Shown here one piece after another: positions 5,170 through 14,746 of a stretch of 23,535 nucleotides of DNA (its first letter is position 1; every line of letters begins with the position of its first letter). The notes beneath the pieces were generated by a model that was not told the origin of the DNA, searched no databases, and saw only the letters and a program-made list of their open reading frames with translations. The position numbers were made by a program, and so were the translations under genes. The stretch is from a virus: positions 1 through 23,535 of the IMG/VR virus record IMGVR_UViG_3300044634_002851; one strand, given 5' to 3'.

Positions 5170-5198
5170 TTGACCAAAAATCGCCAATTTGCTATAAT
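5170..5198 (+). promoter_or_regulatory. Sigma70-like promoter P2 with operator-like -35
   Basis: TTGACC (5170-5175), a 17-base spacer and TATAAT (5193-5198), with TG one base upstream of the -10 (extended -10). The -35 lies inside a perfect inverted repeat, TTTTGGTTGACCAAAA (5164-5179). About 40 bases of this promoter are repeated nearly unchanged at P3 (6034-6070). Confidence 0.8.
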
Positions 5199-5870: not shown

Positions 5871-5995
5871 TTTCACTGTTTTTATATTGTGCTCTAGGTG
5901 CAGCCCTAGCCGCCAGCGGTGTTAACGTAATTGACAAGCCTTGGCAATTTATAGTAATAATGGCCATTGTTGTTGGCATTGACCACGCTCGTTGA
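5867..5995 (+). CDS. Tiny hydrophobic membrane protein (42 aa)
   Basis: A 42-residue reading frame that begins in an ATGA overlap with the preceding gene (5867-5870) and ends at TGA 5993-5995. It has two hydrophobic segments: LFLYCALGAALAASG (4-18) and WQFIVIMAIVVGI (26-38), separated by NVIDKP. The layout is a two-span miniature membrane protein with a C-terminal DHAR. The perfect coupling to its neighbour and the lack of any other use of these 130 bases support translation. Function unknown. Confidence 0.6.
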   Translation: MISLFLYCALGAALAASGVNVIDKPWQFIVIMAIVVGIDHAR

Positions 5996-6006
5996 AGGAT
6001 CAAAAA

Positions 6007-6024
6007 GTAGTACTCAAGTACTAC
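6007..6024 (+). repeat. Palindrome upstream of P3
   Basis: GTAGTACTCAAGTACTAC has perfect 8-base arms around CA. It ends 11 bases before the -35 box of P3, in the same relative place as the inverted repeat upstream of P2. All three early promoters share GTAGTA in this upstream position. Confidence 0.55.
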
Positions 6025-6035
6025 CAACGTTCTGG

Positions 6036-6064
6036 TTGACCAAAATTGCCCAATTTGCTATAAT
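6036..6064 (+). promoter_or_regulatory. Sigma70-like promoter P3
   Basis: TTGACC (6036-6041), a 17-base spacer and TATAAT (6059-6064), with an extended -10 TG. The sequence from GGTTGACCAAAA to the TATAAT and ACACATA downstream is nearly the same as P2, so the two are a duplicated promoter cassette. Confidence 0.8.
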
Positions 6065-6096
6065 ATACACATAGCAAAGCAAAACAGGAGTTGGAA

Positions 6097-9198: not shown

Positions 9199-9662
9199 AA
9201 AAGATCTACTATGTCAAAGAAGGTCGCAGGTACAAACCTGTGGCAGAGTACGACAGTGATCTCATGGACAGTTTTCACAAAGGCAATCATCTTGTGATGG
9301 TATATCCTGGTGGTACTAGTCGCAGGTTCAACATTGAGCCTGCCTTGGCACCTATGATTGCCGCAGGGCGAGTGGCCGAAGATGCCATGTGCCGAGCCAT
9401 GGTCAAGTCCAGCGAATTAAAACCACAGCACACTCCTCTTACAGAAGGACAACGTAAGGCATGGCGTAAACTGGCCAAGGAGTTTGGCACCGAACTTTGT
9501 ACCCTAGAAGGTAGCAGTACTCGTGACATTGTGGAAGCTGGAGTGCAGGCCATGCAGATTGAAGCAGATCAACTCATGAGTCACCCTGCTGTTCGTGATG
9601 CCTACGAACAGTTTCAATTGGTATGCAAACTTGTAAAGGAAAAAGATAATGGCCACAACTGA
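9195..9662 (+). CDS. Phage hypothetical with C-terminal PAVRDAYEQFQ motif
   Basis: A 155-residue protein. The N-terminus (MKKIYYVKEGRRYKPVAEYD) and FHKGNHLVMVYPGGTSRR look like a beta-rich domain; residues about 80-150 are helical and end HPAVRDAYEQFQLVCKLVKE. This end is close to that of the preceding protein. The start at 9195 is set by an ATGA overlap; a much longer frame from 9009 overlaps the upstream gene in another frame and is not credible. It overlaps the following gene by 14 bases. Confidence 0.65.
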   Translation: MKKIYYVKEGRRYKPVAEYDSDLMDSFHKGNHLVMVYPGGTSRRFNIEPALAPMIAAGRVAEDAMCRAMVKSSELKPQHTPLTEGQRKAWRKLAKEFGTELCTLEGSSTRDIVEAGVQAMQIEADQLMSHPAVRDAYEQFQLVCKLVKEKDNGHN

Positions 9663-10569
9663 TGAACATGAAAAGCTCATTGCACATTTGAAATTCACTC
9701 CACGCACCTACAAAATTCAATTGTGGGGCTACGGCGGCGAGTATGTGATGGGTACTGTGTCACGTGAAATCTACGACTACTTTAGAAAACACAGACTCAG
9801 TGTGCCAGACTATGCCTGGGGTGGTGACGAGTTTGATGATGTGCCCGAAGACATGCGACCATTTGAGCCAGGATCGTACTATGACTGCGACAACATCGGG
9901 CATATCAACGGTGTTGATCGTAATTCTGGTACCATGCAAGTCTTGGACGAAAATGGCACAGTAGTCTACGAACGAGATCTGTCTGGCCTAGATGGATGTG
10001 ATGTGCAACTCAGCACATTTGAGGAAGTTTGGGTTGACAGTCAACCGCCTGGCACGGTTGTGTATTTTGGCCATACATCCGACAAGGGTACCTTTTTCGA
10101 AGCCGACATTGATCTTACAGAACCGTTTGACCCTGAAAAACTATTGTTGAACCTTGCTGATTTTGACTCAAACGAAATTGTGATTGGTGTGGAATACGAC
10201 GACCAAGAGCTGGACAACTACGGTGGTGATACCAATGGCAAAGGCTCGGATCATGCATTTTACATTGCTGGTTCCAACACAGGCTCGGGCTACGAACGCT
10301 ATCGCGACATGGATGACATCAAGTACACACTCACTGACTGGTTTCCTTCAAAAGTCAAACCTGTACGCGAAGGAAAATACAATGTTCAAACTCAAACTGG
10401 TCATGAATACCATGCTGGATGGAATGGTGAATATTGGTACAACGATTGGAAACCCGAAGAGCCAATCAAGGTCAAGCGTTGGCAAGGAGTATCATATGAT
10501 CCAGATGAACACTTCTTGATGGAAGAACTGGATCAAATTGCCAAGGAATTTCAACGCCTCACATTGTGA
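9649..10569 (+). CDS. Large acidic phage hypothetical
   Basis: A 306-residue, very acidic protein with the start region TPRTYKIQLWGYGGEYVMGT and a second recognisable block, SREIYDYFRKH. The middle is rich in Asp, Gly and Tyr (FEPGSYYDCDNIGHINGVDR, NYGGDTNGKGSDHAFY), and the C-terminus has a WQGVSYDPDEHF segment and a terminal helix. Similar proteins occur in vibrio-type and other large phages, without assigned function. AAAGGA stands at 9635-9640, eight bases upstream of the ATG. Its stop lies in a small TCACATTGTGA palindrome (10559-10569). Confidence 0.65.
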   Translation: MATTDEHEKLIAHLKFTPRTYKIQLWGYGGEYVMGTVSREIYDYFRKHRLSVPDYAWGGDEFDDVPEDMRPFEPGSYYDCDNIGHINGVDRNSGTMQVLDENGTVVYERDLSGLDGCDVQLSTFEEVWVDSQPPGTVVYFGHTSDKGTFFEADIDLTEPFDPEKLLLNLADFDSNEIVIGVEYDDQELDNYGGDTNGKGSDHAFYIAGSNTGSGYERYRDMDDIKYTLTDWFPSKVKPVREGKYNVQTQTGHEYHAGWNGEYWYNDWKPEEPIKVKRWQGVSYDPDEHFLMEELDQIAKEFQRLTL

Positions 10570-10580
10570 CCCAATTACTG

Positions 10581-10609
10581 TTGACCAGCACTGATATTGT
10601 TGTTATAAT
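10581..10609 (+). promoter_or_regulatory. Sigma70-like promoter of the clpX operon
   Basis: TTGACC (10581-10586), a 17-base spacer and TATAAT (10604-10609) with extended -10 TG. It reads into a 180-base leader, then the genes at 10793-13939. The expected start site (about 10616) is at the beginning of the paired leader structure. Confidence 0.8.
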
Positions 10610-10613
10610 AGCT

Positions 10614-10736
10614 ATGCACGGTTGGGGAGATTGAGCAGTTCAATGGTGAAACAGGGTAGCTAACTCGAGCCTGTTTCTACCGTGGCATGTGAACATCAGT
10701 CTTGTAGGTTGCGACAAGGACCACGATCGCAAGATC
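10614..10736 (+). ncRNA. Candidate structured leader RNA
   Basis: There is no gene in 10570-10792. The transcribed leader can form several helices. P1 pairs ATGCACGG (10614-10621) with CCGTGGCAT (10680-10688), with one bulged G. Nested inside it, P2 pairs GAAACAGG (10648-10655) with CCTGTTTC (10670-10677) around a 14-base loop. P3 pairs CTTGT (10701-10705) with ACAAG (10714-10718), and can be extended past a bulged G. P4 is GATC-GCAA-GATC (10725-10736) with a GNRA tetraloop. Pairing was found by eye. It matches no tRNA or riboswitch I can recognise. It could be a cis-acting leader of the clpX operon or a stand-alone small RNA. Confidence 0.45.
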
Positions 10737-10792
10737 AAACCCTGGCTGGTACCCGGGAGTATGCCGAGTGGATTTAAACTGGAAAGGACATT

Positions 10793-11113
10793 ATGTCTGT
10801 CAACATTGAGGCCTCTACGTTGAGTATGCCTGAGTCACTTGACTCGCTTAAATTAACGCCCTCAGCCGTGCACCTACATCGAGTGTTTGTTGAACTAGCA
10901 AACACTGACCAATGGTACAAGATCATTCGTGAAGCCAACACCTTGTACGGTGTCCATAACTGGCGAGGTCAGCCTAGAGCCAGACGTCGTCTAGAGCGCG
11001 AACGTTGGAGTGAAAAAGTTACTTCAATCTGGTTTGATGTGCCTGATCCTGCATTTGCCACCTGGGTATCTGTAAAGCATAGCGTGATTGCTCGCGTACA
11101 GGCCACTAAATAA
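10793..11113 (+). CDS. Small basic protein of unknown function
   Basis: A 106-residue protein. The central part has helices with an Arg-rich stretch, RGQPRARRRLERERWSEK (about 58-75), that could contact nucleic acid. Other landmarks are VHLHRVFVELANTDQWYKII and a terminal VKHSVIARVQATK. No family recognised. The ATG has AAAGGA six bases upstream and is the first gene after the structured leader. The membrane-protein gene starts three bases after its stop. Confidence 0.65.
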   Translation: MSVNIEASTLSMPESLDSLKLTPSAVHLHRVFVELANTDQWYKIIREANTLYGVHNWRGQPRARRRLERERWSEKVTSIWFDVPDPAFATWVSVKHSVIARVQATK

Positions 11114-11116
11114 TCT

Positions 11117-12541
11117 ATGTTTCTTAGTTATATTACCCTGGCAGTTGCACTGAGTCTGTCAGTTATTGCCGCCTACTACAGTATTGCAGGTCTTACTGCA
11201 ATTTTTGCCGCGGCTGTGATTCCTATCATTGTGATGGGCGGCATTCTTGAGATTGGCAAAGTTGTGGTCACACTGTGGCTGCACGAGTACTGGAGTCGTT
11301 GCCGTTTGCTCATGAAACTGTATTTGGTTCCTGCTGTGGCTGTGCTGATGTTGATCACCAGCATGGGTATCTTTGGGTTTTTGTCAAAAGCACACAGTGA
11401 TCAAAATCTAGTGTCAGGCGATGTACAGGCCAAAATTGCAGTGTACGACGAAAAAATCAAGACAGCAAAGGACAATATAGATGCAAACCGTAAGGCACTT
11501 AAACAGATGGATGAGGCTGTGGACCAAGTCATGGGTCGAAGCCAAGACGAAAAAGGTGCTGACAAAGCAGTTGCACTACGACGAGCACAACAAAAAGAAC
11601 GTGCCCGCCTTCTCTCTGAGATCCAGGCCGAACAAAAAACAATTAGTGGTCTTAATGAAGAACGTGCGCCAATTGCAGCCGAAGTACGCAAGGTTGAGGC
11701 TGAAGTAGGTCCCATCAAGTACATTGCTGCCATGGTGTATGACGAAAACACAGACACCAACTCCTTGGAAGCCGCAGTACGATGGGTTATCGTCATGTTG
11801 GTAATTGTGTTTGATCCCTTGGCCATCATGATGTTGCTGGCCGCTACCGAAAGTCTAAAGTGGGAACGTCAACGACTGTTTGACTTGTTGAAATTGCCTG
11901 CACCTGAACCTGAACCAGAGCCTATACCCGAACCCACACCAGAACCTGAAAAGAGTTTGTTAGAGAAACATCCTTACTTGACCGCAGGCTTTGCCCACTT
12001 CCGTAATCTTGTGCCCATGGTGTGGCGCCCAGCACCACAACCGGTATCTCAAGATCCCACACCGCCGGGCTGGATGTTTGAAACCGCTGTGTCTACGCCT
12101 GAAACTACAACAGAAGACACAGATGCAGTGGATGAACACAATCCCAAGTTTAAAGAGGCCATTAGACGATGGAAACAGGAACACCCTGGCAAAACCATAA
12201 AGAATCAACGCTATTTGTTACAGCGTGGCGACATTCAAGAACTGCCCTGGATCCAGTATCTACATGAAACCAAAAGCAGTTTTGGCACAGATTTTCCTGC
12301 CCAGCCTGCCAAAGGCGACAGCTTTGTTAGAATAGATCGAGTGCCTAGCCAGTTGTTCAAATTCAATGGCAGTCGTTGGATAGAGGTTGACAAAAACACC
12401 ACAGACAATTACACTTATGACATGGCCTATATTGACCATCTCATTCAATTGATTAGCCAGGGCAGCTACGATGCTGAACTGTTGACTGATGCAGAACAAC
12501 TACAAGTGGCCAACCGCTTGCAACAAAACTCAAACATATGA
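11117..12541 (+). CDS. Phage membrane protein with coiled coil and Pro/Glu linker
   Basis: A 474-residue protein with four hydrophobic segments (about 4-24, 27-55, 66-90 and 222-245). A coiled-coil domain at about 101-200 lies between the third and fourth and begins just after FLSKAHSDQ. After the last span come a Pro/Glu repeat (261-279, PEPEPEPIPEPTPEPE) and a soluble C-terminal region of about 195 residues. The block ITSMGIFGFLSKAH is typical of a widespread but uncharacterised phage inner-membrane protein. The C-terminal part is less familiar. The gene overlaps clpX by four bases (ATGA), so membrane protein and unfoldase are probably made together. Role unknown; the topology suggests a long coiled coil outside or between membrane anchors. 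Confidence 0.75.
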   Translation: MFLSYITLAVALSLSVIAAYYSIAGLTAIFAAAVIPIIVMGGILEIGKVVVTLWLHEYWSRCRLLMKLYLVPAVAVLMLITSMGIFGFLSKAHSDQNLVSGDVQAKIAVYDEKIKTAKDNIDANRKALKQMDEAVDQVMGRSQDEKGADKAVALRRAQQKERARLLSEIQAEQKTISGLNEERAPIAAEVRKVEAEVGPIKYIAAMVYDENTDTNSLEAAVRWVIVMLVIVFDPLAIMMLLAATESLKWERQRLFDLLKLPAPEPEPEPIPEPTPEPEKSLLEKHPYLTAGFAHFRNLVPMVWRPAPQPVSQDPTPPGWMFETAVSTPETTTEDTDAVDEHNPKFKEAIRRWKQEHPGKTIKNQRYLLQRGDIQELPWIQYLHETKSSFGTDFPAQPAKGDSFVRIDRVPSQLFKFNGSRWIEVDKNTTDNYTYDMAYIDHLIQLISQGSYDAELLTDAEQLQVANRLQQNSNI

Positions 12542-13728
12542 AATCAAACGAATCTATCTACAATTGCAGTTTCTGCGGCAAACACAAAGATGTTGTAACC
12601 AAATTAATAGTAGGCGAAAATGTTGCTATTTGCAACGAGTGTGTGGATTTGTGCCAAAACTTGCTGATAGACACCCCAGCCGAAGTCAAGGCCGCTAGCA
12701 CACCTAGCTTGGATCCACGCAAAATTCGTGAGCACCTGGATCAGTATGTGATTGGTCAAGACCAGGCCAAGATACTGCTGAGTGTGGCCATTGCCAATCA
12801 TTACAAACGCATTGACAATCAAGACCCCGAACACGAAATTGAAAAAGCCAATATTCTCATGCTTGGTCCCACAGGCTCAGGAAAGACCTTGTTGGCCCGT
12901 ACCGTAGCACGTTATCTAGATGTGCCATTTGTAATCGCAGATGCTACCAGTTTAACCGAAGCAGGGTATGTAGGCGATGATGTAGAAAGTCTAATCGGTC
13001 GACTGTTTGCTGCCGCAGGTGGTGACATTGATAAAACACAACGTGGCATTGTGTTTGTGGACGAAATTGACAAGATTTCTCGCAAAAGCGAAAGCGCCAG
13101 TATCACTCGTGATGTCAGTGGCGAAGGTGTGCAACAGGCCTTGCTCAAGCTGGTAGAAGGTACCAAGTGCAGAATCACTCCTACTGGTGGGCGCAAGCAT
13201 CCGTCAGGCGAAACGGTGGAAATTGATACCACCAACATCTTGTTTATTGCTGGTGGTGCATTTGTGGGCATGGAAAATATTGTAAAAAGTCGCGTAAAAG
13301 GCACCAGCATTGGATTTGGCGCTGATGTACGCACAAATGAAAAAACACAGTTGAGCCAAACCACCCCTGACGACCTGGTGCGCTTTGGATTAATTCCCGA
13401 GTTTGTGGGTCGGTTCCCAGCCTGGGTAGCACTACAAGAGCTGGACAAAGCAGACCTTGTGCGTATTCTACAAGAAGTCAAGCACAACTATGTGAGTCAG
13501 TATCAATGGTTGTTCAAGCAGGATGATGTTGATCTAGAGTTTACAAAAGACAGCTTGGATCTTATTGCTGAACGCACCATCAAGAACAAAACAGGTGCTC
13601 GTGGACTGCATTCTGAATTGGAACGTGTGTTGTTGCCACACATGTACAATCTAGCTCGCTATCGTTCAGATGGCATCAAGCATGTGGACATTGATCAGGC
13701 CTTGGTAAATAGTCCCAAGGAACTCTGA
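12538..13728 (+). CDS. clpX: ClpX, ATP-dependent unfoldase
   Basis: AAA+ unfoldase that feeds proteins to the ClpP protease. The 396 residues are near the 424 of E. coli ClpX. All functional parts are visible: the zinc-binding domain C10, C13, C32, C35; Walker A GPTGSGKT (110-117); pore loop GYVG (143-146); Walker B VFVDEID (172-178); RKH loop (219-221); the ClpP-docking loop IGF (258-260); and the sensor region FGLIPEFVGR and GARGL. The intact IGF loop implies docking with a ClpP ring. No clpP is present in this window, so the host's is the likely partner. ClpX without ClpP could also act alone to remodel complexes. Translation is coupled to the membrane protein upstream. Confidence 0.96.
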   Translation: MKSNESIYNCSFCGKHKDVVTKLIVGENVAICNECVDLCQNLLIDTPAEVKAASTPSLDPRKIREHLDQYVIGQDQAKILLSVAIANHYKRIDNQDPEHEIEKANILMLGPTGSGKTLLARTVARYLDVPFVIADATSLTEAGYVGDDVESLIGRLFAAAGGDIDKTQRGIVFVDEIDKISRKSESASITRDVSGEGVQQALLKLVEGTKCRITPTGGRKHPSGETVEIDTTNILFIAGGAFVGMENIVKSRVKGTSIGFGADVRTNEKTQLSQTTPDDLVRFGLIPEFVGRFPAWVALQELDKADLVRILQEVKHNYVSQYQWLFKQDDVDLEFTKDSLDLIAERTIKNKTGARGLHSELERVLLPHMYNLARYRSDGIKHVDIDQALVNSPKEL

Positions 13729-13735
13729 CAGGATT

Positions 13736-13939
13736 ATGGAAAAATTACACGGTAGATTAGTACTAGTACAGGATGGCAACGTAGATCGTGCCTTGCGCAA
13801 GTTCAAGAAAAAGATAGCTGCTTCGGGGCTGTTGAATGATCTGCGAGAGCGCGAACACTATGTCAAACCCACTACTGCTCGCAAACTCAAGGCCAGTGCC
13901 GCCGCCAGCCGTTGGCGAGCAGTAGTGGGTTTGACATAG
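13736..13939 (+). CDS. rpsU: Ribosomal protein bS21 homologue with altered C-terminus
   Basis: A 67-residue bS21 protein (E. coli 71). The conserved core is clear: VDRALRKFKKKIAASGLLND, then REREHYVKPTTARK (37-50). bS21 sits by the anti-Shine-Dalgarno end of 16S rRNA in the 30S subunit and affects initiation; phage copies may replace the host protein. The tail is odd: after SAAASRW the last seven residues, RAVVGLT, lack the basic character usual in this tail. They are encoded by an inverted copy of the segment coding for HYVKPTTAR. The Shine-Dalgarno is poorly placed (AGGA only two bases before the ATG, AAGGA 13 bases before), so translation may rely on clpX upstream. Confidence 0.88.
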   Translation: MEKLHGRLVLVQDGNVDRALRKFKKKIAASGLLNDLREREHYVKPTTARKLKASAAASRWRAVVGLT

Positions 13940-13941
13940 TG
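13856..13941 (+). repeat. Perfect 27-bp inverted repeat in rpsU
   Basis: Left arm 13856-13882 (starts CACTATGTC, ends CTGCTCGC) is the exact reverse complement of right arm 13915-13941 (starts GCGAGCAG, ends GACATAGTG), with a 32-base spacer. Both arms lie in rpsU; the right one includes the stop codon (13937-13939). It would fold into a very stable hairpin in mRNA or single-stranded DNA. No T-tract follows it, so it is not a standard intrinsic terminator. Confidence 0.97.
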
Positions 13942-13969
13942 AGCAAGAACTGCCCAAAAAAATGTTCTA

Positions 13970-14224: not shown

Positions 14225-14287
14225 ATTTGTAGATGCTCATGGTGAGGTCTACATCAAAACGTCATACTTGCTTAATAGGAGAAAAAC

Positions 14288-14746
14288 ATGACAAAAACTC
14301 TAACCCTTCGCTCTTTCGACATTCCCGCAATTCACAAATTTGGTATCGGTTTCGATAACATGTTTGACGAACTCATGCGTGTGAGTGCTCAACAAGGCAA
14401 CACCAACTACCCACCCTACGATATTGTACAAATCAATGATGACGAGTACATGATCAGCGTGGCTGTAGCTGGCTTTGGACACGACAATCTTTCAGTAACC
14501 AAGGATAAAAAAGTCTTGATCATTGAAGGCAAACACAGCCGTGATACGGTGGACAACGAAGACGCCACCGCAAAATACCTACACAAAGGCATCAGCGAAC
14601 GAAACTTCCGCAGGGAATTTCAGTTGGCTGACCACGTGGAGATCAGCAATGCGCACCTTGAACTGGGCATCTTGAACATACACCTAAAGCGTGAAGTTCC
14701 AGAAGACGCCAAGCCAAAGACCATCTCTATCAGCTACACTTCTTGA
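14288..14746 (+). CDS. Small heat-shock protein, Hsp20/alpha-crystallin family
   Basis: An ATP-independent holdase that binds unfolding proteins and forms oligomers. The 152 residues are the usual size. The alpha-crystallin domain runs from about 42 (YPPYDIVQINDDEYMISVAV) to 136, with the hallmark LELGILNIHL (G127-I130 region), and is followed by the C-terminal I-x-I motif ISI (146-148) needed for oligomer assembly. The start has TAGGAG (14276-14281) upstream. A late-type promoter and a 5' leader hairpin precede it, so it is probably made late, when capsid proteins accumulate. Hsp20 genes are regular members of T4-like marine phages. A GNRA-capped hairpin follows it. Confidence 0.93.
   Translation: MTKTLTLRSFDIPAIHKFGIGFDNMFDELMRVSAQQGNTNYPPYDIVQINDDEYMISVAVAGFGHDNLSVTKDKKVLIIEGKHSRDTVDNEDATAKYLHKGISERNFRREFQLADHVEISNAHLELGILNIHLKREVPEDAKPKTISISYTS

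Follow-up and report, generated by a model that had tools for sequence, protein, structure and literature searches.

A conserved, pseudoknotted leader RNA that extends into the coding sequence of a clpX-linked gene cluster in uncultured large phages

INTRODUCTION

To our knowledge, phages offer few known examples of pseudoknotted translational operators. A 2010 review notes that the leader of T4 gene 32 may contain the sole viral pseudoknot with a known role in translational autoregulation (PMC3014915). In E. coli rpsO (S15), a pseudoknot at the ribosome-binding site (RBS), including base pairs with coding bases, can prevent the start codon from entering the P-site (PMC3858243). Phage-carried structured 5'-leader RNAs are also known from metagenomes, such as the manA and wcaG motifs (Weinberg 2010; PMC2864571), and in the MS2 maturation leader and the hok/aapA toxin mRNAs, long-distance or 5'-end pairing controls the access of ribosomes (PMC6733600).

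Here, we analyzed a 23.5-kb virus record (23,535 nt; IMGVR_UViG_3300044634_002851), referred to as the window, whose genes include those for ClpX, a small heat-shock protein (sHsp), and ClpS. An earlier note on this DNA had proposed a leader of 180 bases with nested helices; the element described below is longer, about 260 nt, and runs into a small gene, orf106. As a structured leader carried by phages, it resembles the manA and wcaG motifs in general type.

RESULTS

A conserved RNA directly upstream of orf106

A DNA pattern built from the most conserved stretch retrieved 89 viral loci. Twenty-eight leaders were aligned by hand, and the same sequences were aligned blindly by MAFFT (alignment A1), onto which the structure was mapped to obtain the covariance model R1. 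The R1 search resulted in 70 matches over 72 sources, including three remote leaders absent from model building (L016, E 2e-8; L015, 7e-6; L018, 1e-3), each of them directly upstream of an orf106 relative. Loci were also fetched independently by an orf106 protein profile, and the RNA was found just upstream in 78 of these 80 loci; the two loci without it (L120 and L191) are cut at the contig end and have just 52 and 2 nt of upstream sequence. The leaders upstream of the orf106 relatives are clearly homologous to that of the window. Some 100 distinct homologues of the RNA occur in uncultured large-phage contigs of up to 364 kb, and the RNA was never seen without orf106 wherever downstream sequence exists. 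It is single-copy per large contig searched, except for the whole 74.7-kb L017 contig, which has no copy, and one large contig has a second match at E 0.08. Distant orf106-like matches were seen in L017 and L014 with no RNA match at the locus.

As the earlier note had suggested, an Rfam covariance search was run; the window leader and its relatives matched no family of Rfam 15 at gathering, and nothing meaningful appeared at permissive thresholds. No tRNA or tmRNA was detected in the window by ARAGORN. There was no DNA or protein relative among the INPHARED phages and no orf106 relative in the GTDB genomes, where the RNA pattern gave 12 matches, none scoring as this RNA. No match for the leader RNA was found in the open-access literature searched. 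The leader thus contains a genuine structured RNA, conserved among the homologues, of a family uncatalogued relative to Rfam 15 and that literature.

Promoter and gene cluster

The strong promoter described in the earlier note was confirmed, being kept in 101 of 105 distinct homologues. These have at least 9 of 12 consensus matches just upstream of the RNA, and in 94 of the 101 the promoter lies 6 to 8 nt before the model-placed RNA start; a spacing of 18 to 19 nt marks the clade with a 5' insertion. In the window, transcription is predicted to start at about 10614-10616. An insertion of ~12 nt (the GGCCUGGCCAGGAUAU region) was observed between P0 and P1 in L042, L058, L071, and L161. Near-consensus TTGACC-N-TATAAT promoters resembling the one at 10581 are also present at window positions 5170, 6036, and 20570 (+ strand).

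The gene order ligase ... RNA - orf106 - membrane protein - ClpX ... sHsp - ClpS is kept among relatives, while the gene immediately upstream of the RNA varies. The ends of orf106, the membrane protein gene, and clpX touch or overlap, and no terminator-like site was found between the RNA and orf106 when positions 10300-11100 were scanned. The gap before orf106 is noncoding, as had been claimed: RNA lengths fall into all three classes modulo 3, and the longest internal open reading frame (ORF) ranges from 7 to 54 amino acids. The accompanying claim that genes elsewhere are only a few bases apart did not hold, as three other intergenic gaps in the window measure 226-241 nt (1595-1826, 5871-6096, and 13729-13969).

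We also observed sub-threshold matches to ROSE_3 (RF02523; E 0.004-0.23) around the sHsp start, at 14227-14293 in the window and at 9432-9496, 11167-11229, and 9216-9281 in L006, L012, and L018, respectively. These sites are possibly a phage-borne RNA thermometer. All of them are below the gathering score and lie upstream of the sHsp gene alone, with no RF02523 match in the orf106 leader.

Helices of the leader

The features of the locus are given in Table 1. The helices follow the order P0(5') - [P1-P2-P3a-P3 arm] - P8(5') - P4[P6, P7] - SD - AUG - P10[P9] - P8(3') - P0(3'), and the pseudoknot joins the P1-P2-P3a-P3 arm to the P4 domain. The Shine-Dalgarno sequence (SD) and the AUG of orf106 (10793-10795) occupy a 16-nt gap flanked by P4, which ends at 10782, about 11 nt before the AUG, and by P10, which starts at 10799, 6 nt after the A of the AUG. 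The motifs AAAACC, AGGUUGMGAC, CUGRUAC, and GUAA are conserved and unpaired.

Table 1. Coordinates of the promoter, RNA domain, helices, and genes in the window.
Feature	Position	Strand	Basis
Promoter, sigma-70-type, TTGACC-17-TATAAT	10581..10609	+	Sequence; conserved in homologues
Entire structured RNA domain, comprising the leader and orf106 codons 1 to ~28	10614..10876	+	Covariation, folding
P0 5' strand, first transcribed bases, partner 10860-10873	10614..10627	+	91.7% paired on A6
P1 5' strand, partners 10699 and 10701-10703	10633..10636	+	97.5% paired; double changes in 3/4 pairs
P2 5' strand, partner 10690-10694	10638..10642	+	Double changes in 5/5 pairs
P3a 5' strand AUGG, partner 10680-10683 (CCGU)	10643..10646	+	97.5% paired
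P3 hairpin, 10648-10655 with 10670-10677	10648..10677	+	Double changes in 7/8 pairs
Pseudoknot strand GGCW, partner WGCC 10762-10765	10684..10687	+	99.5% paired
P8 5' strand GCGA, partner 10844-10847 (UCGC) in orf106	10711..10714	+	100% paired
P4a/P4b 5' strand, partners 10778-10782 and 10768-10771	10715..10724	+	Alignments
P6 GNRA hairpin GAUC-GCAA-GAUC	10725..10736	+	Covaries
P7 hairpin, 10741-10745 with 10753-10757	10741..10757	+	Loop CUGRUAC conserved in most
Shine-Dalgarno AAAGGA, directly 3' of P4	10783..10788	+	Sequence, homologues
orf106, small protein, function unassigned	10793..11113	+	Predicted alpha/beta fold
P10 (10799-10803 with 10839-10843) around P9, codons 3-17	10799..10843	+	P10 99.2% paired
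P9	10809-10812 with 10828-10831; tip 10816-10818 with 10824-10826	+	97% and tip 100% paired
P8 3' strand, in orf106 codon ~18	10844..10847	+	Covariation
P0 3' strand, orf106 codons ~23-27	10860..10873	+	Covariation
474-aa membrane protein, cluster gene 2, weak DUF4407 match	11117..12541	+	Order conserved
ClpX, cluster gene 3	12538..13728	+	Order conserved

Compensatory base changes are seen at individual pairs. The P1 pair 10636-10699 alternates between C-G and U-A, the pseudoknot pair 10687-10762 is AU in 49 sequences and UA in 12, and P6 holds the top-ranked pair among all column pairs. In the L005-like clade, the pseudoknot motif following CCGT is GGCU, facing AGCC; the mismatches scored in part of this clade arose when the pattern caught an earlier 'CTGTGG'. 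One or two pseudoknot mismatches are present in the remote L015, L016, and L018. P4a/P4b is weak in the window, where its own sub-group has 2-3 pairs only in P4a, and strong (CACUGU..CCnn/nnGG..ACAGUG) in most relatives; the 67-79% of cells paired on alignment A6 partly reflects MAFFT misalignment of two sequence types. The remote L016 and L018 keep P1, P2, P4a, P6, and P7 with quite different letters, as located by eye with complementarity then verified, and P7 is extended in L016 (CCAACC/GGUUGG).

Two of the hairpins proposed in the earlier note are part of this fold. The 8-bp perfect helix at 10648-10655/10670-10677, found in 2.5% of dinucleotide shuffles, covaries and corresponds to P3, and the GNRA hairpin at 10725-10736 is present, covaries, and corresponds to P6. 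Its outer helix (10614-10621/10680-10688, there called P1) is not conserved; the 5' strand pairs instead with 10860-10873 to form P0, and 10680-10687 belongs to P3a and the pseudoknot. The hairpin proposed at 10701-10718 was likewise not conserved, with 10701-10704 belonging to P1 and 10711-10714 to P8. The earlier note had held that a lack of covariation, or a conserved short ORF in the gap, would speak against an RNA, and on both points the outcome favored the RNA.

Covariation of the leader model

On A1, which was aligned without structure, 88% of the cells are paired, and the score is 0.337, versus 0.144 +- 0.009 for shuffled and 0.05-0.11 for slid partners. Alignments A2 and A4, fitted to the model, have covariation scores of 0.421 and 0.458. 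In a scan of all column pairs (~15,000 pairs), the nine strongest are all pairs of the leader model, and the tenth is an extra P1 pair. Significance was evaluated with a per-column null, computed with a custom script rather than R-scape, in which each column's substitutions are kept and placed on random branches of the tree; 14 of 38 model pairs were significant when the model pairs alone were tested. An initial null, which distributed the substitutions across every column, had a heavy tail, with 2 of 38 pairs significant when judged against the whole set of column pairs, and was set aside.

Some alternative structures were also discarded. RNAalifold on A1 returned a single near-invariant hairpin that overlaps P7, which covaries. 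A leader-only pairing of the 5' GCAU with UAWGC after P7 was dropped in favor of P0, for the 5' end, and of the pseudoknot, for WGCC. Likeness to RNase P, tmRNA, the cobalamin riboswitch, and group I and II introns was also considered and dropped, as it had no Rfam support.

The fold continues into orf106

Among 91 distinct ORFs, the fraction of equal residues encoded by the same codon is 0.62-0.86 in codons 1-30 and mostly 0.33-0.45 later. In addition, the nucleotides of the orf106-start stretch stay conserved in a clade where this stretch is out of the orf106 frame. Conservation at the codon level, together with this out-of-frame conservation, pointed to a fold extending into orf106. A scan of the ORF-containing alignment recovered P0, P8, P9, P10, and the pseudoknot, the last four of which emerged unprompted from the all-column scan.

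P0 joins the 5' end of the transcript to the coding sequence, as TGCACGGTTGGGG/CCTCAGCCGTGCA in the window, GTTGCATAGCGTCGG/CCGATGCTATGCAAC in L071, and TGCGCATTGGTAG/CTACCGATGCGCA in L141. At 99 of 102 distinct loci the longest helix reaches 8 bp or more, with 12-15 bp being frequent, although in a few loci it is not the homologous one. Since many loci are alike, mismatched P0 partners often pair well, and covariation is therefore the test that counts. Double-change cells number 115, versus 31.7 +- 5.5 (maximum, 46) after shuffling, and P0 is 86% paired, compared to 32-48% with slid partners.

In P8, half of the sequences are doubly changed at one pair. Pair 10712-10846 occurs as CG (30), AU (25), UG (4), and UA (3), the switch from C to A in the leader going with the third base of a Ser codon (TCG to TCT). 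P9 has double changes in all four of its pairs. Among 15 loci from lineages outside A6, P0, P8, and P10 are all present in the clade with the 5' insertion and in the L005-like clade, with one P10 mismatch in L007 and L088. P8 persists in the remote lineages with other letters (GUGG/CCAC and GAGG/CCUC in L015/L016 and L018), and P10 is kept in L015 and L018. In L015, L016, and L018, the most remote homologues, no P0 was recovered, although short complementary stretches are visible by eye.

Alignment A6 comprises 50 sequences of leader plus codons aligned by MAFFT, with no structure used. Under a 70-pair model, 91.5% of its cells are paired, double changes occur in 46 pairs versus 30.7 +- 2.1 for shuffles, and the covariation score is 0.403 versus 0.200 +- 0.006 (shuffled) and 0.05-0.12 (slid), in counts that include P0, P8, P9, P10, and the pseudoknot, which were proposed on much the same alignments.

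Two further observations concern this region. A5 columns 123, 269, and 309 (window 10703, 10822, and 10859) covary and are unpaired in the model, with 10703-10822 occurring as CG (26), AT (17), and TG (16); this may reflect either a tertiary contact or a clade effect. We also observed that in L005, L010, L143, L121, L132, and L141, and likewise in L007, L088, L015, L016, and L018, what follows the SD is another short frame (e.g., GUG UUU AUU AAA AUA...) that overlaps or precedes the orf106 AUG. As read from the sequences, this suggests a leader peptide or translational coupling.

Taken by itself, the 182-nt leader has an unremarkable folding energy (z = -1.0), and that of the domain including the ORF start is lower (z = -2.56). 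In single-sequence folding, P0 has a mean probability of 0.94, and P6 and P3 form readily. P1, P2, P4, P8, and P10 are mostly absent from the minimum-energy folds, with mean pair probabilities of 0.01-0.16, suggesting that the closed core probably depends on tertiary contacts, on the binding of a ligand or protein, or on a particular folding path.

DISCUSSION

The helices, their conservation, their coupling to the promoter, the SD, and orf106, and the nucleotide constraint on codons 1-30 are established at the level of comparative analysis. As is general for structured cis-regulatory mRNA leaders, a covarying structure lies upstream of orthologous genes, has its own promoter, and overlaps or adjoins the RBS. 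The leader RNA is most likely a cis-acting element of translational control; the suggestion of an RNA regulator in the earlier note is well supported in its cis-acting form, by base-pair covariation and because the RNA is invariably linked to one gene and its ribosome-binding site. More specifically, we lean toward the view, with somewhat better than even confidence, that the first ~260 nt of the mRNA are one conserved pseudoknotted domain controlling the translation of the orf106 - membrane protein - clpX cluster.

A 30S subunit covers about 35 nt. Since the SD and AUG lie in a 16-nt gap within a domain closed by P8 and P0, we infer that the 30S subunit could not settle there without unfolding the domain. 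The site would not be usable until P4 and/or P10 open, and translation would be slow or absent with the domain closed and would proceed once it opens, although the SD itself is unpaired in the model. Less surely, the closed state might be stabilized by a ligand or by the orf106 protein itself, as feedback. The paired 5' end should, in addition, protect the mRNA from 5'-end-dependent decay. The main candidates for shifting the balance between the closed and open states are orf106 feedback, a metabolite, and folding kinetics. A more far-reaching proposal, to which we give a little less than an even chance, is that the RNA represents a new class of ~260-nt switch, with aptamer, RBS, and the first ~28 codons in one pseudoknotted tertiary fold closed by P0, in which the RNA and the beginning of the coding sequence would have evolved together at synonymous sites throughout a lineage of large phages.

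Among specific versions of cis-acting control, feedback by orf106 is tentatively placed first, at somewhat less than one chance in three. Here, the orf106 protein would bind its own mRNA domain and trap it closed, in the manner of S15 on rpsO or gp32 on T4 gene 32. In every case the gene that follows the RNA is orf106, whose small protein contains a conserved basic stretch (RVKRRLE) and has a predicted alpha/beta fold, likewise small, that is modeled confidently after residue ~26, the first 24 residues being of low confidence. Such operators are usually smaller, however, and Pfam, PHROGs, PDB sequence, and Foldseek comparisons of orf106 gave no RNA-binding homology, the fold search returning no significant match (E >= 0.02).

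Two other versions are improbable and about equally so. The long conserved unpaired motifs, the pseudoknot, and the GNRA hairpin are typical of aptamers and could belong to a new class of metabolite- or ion-sensing riboswitch acting on translation initiation, but the single gene context, without a ligand hint, and the absence of a match to any Rfam riboswitch argue against it. Alternatively, the domain could act as a signal-independent timer and 5'-end cap, in which ribosomes load until codon ~27 is transcribed and P0 then closes the domain. This would fit the very stable P0, which pairs the beginning of the transcript with codons ~23-27, and a strong promoter, hence much nascent RNA, with precedents in the MS2 maturation gene and the hok/aapA mRNAs (PMC6733600); yet the many conserved unpaired motifs and the pseudoknot exceed the needs of a timer, and the RBS is not itself covered by P0.

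An independent functional RNA, trans-acting or a ribozyme, whose 3' part overlaps the orf106 start, is less probable still. Its closed 5'-3' architecture is like that of a stand-alone RNA, and there is one copy per contig, but the SD and AUG lie inside the RNA at near-fixed spacing and the RNA is never without orf106 where downstream sequence exists. The small RNA that the earlier note had offered as its other option is disfavored as well, there being no terminator before the gene and a fold that continues into the first ~28 codons. An RNA thermometer of a heat-shock-like cluster (sHsp, ClpX, and ClpS nearby) is very improbable, for although sub-threshold ROSE_3 matches are found ahead of the sHsp gene in relatives, with a weak one in the window, thermometers are little conserved in sequence, and here sequence, loops, and tertiary pairs are conserved.

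Cis-acting translational control by the leader RNA would offer a model for how large phages may gate a clpX-linked cluster after transcription. It also bears on annotation, since a third of the RNA is overlooked when leaders of this type are labeled "intergenic".

The leader RNA may act like the operators of rpsO and T4 gene 32, which keep the start region structured, or like the long-distance 5'-end locks of hok/aapA and MS2, but by the tests run it is not recognizably a member of any of these systems, its fold being established comparatively and its function inferred. The manA and wcaG motifs belong to other genes and phages, and Rfam, which includes wcaG as RF01761, has no match to the leader RNA. 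Unlike in MS2 and hok/aapA, the pairing partner here is located in codons ~23-27, on the far side of a large conserved core. ROSE thermometers (RF02523) share the property of being a cis-acting leader of a proteostasis gene and are far smaller. The domain contains a pseudoknot, and P8, P10, and P0 include coding bases; unlike in rpsO, where RNA from -56 to +12 is used and the gene encodes a ribosomal protein, the leader pseudoknot (10684-87/10762-65) is upstream of the RBS in a different fold, the domain has ~260 nt, and no ribosomal protein was seen in the cluster. T4 gene 32 likewise has a phage mRNA leader with a pseudoknot, and no relation between orf106 and gp32 was found. That leader has a single short pseudoknot 67 nt upstream of the AUG, whereas in the unusual layout described here the start codon lies inside the fold, and the choice of codons is constrained over a stretch of ~28.
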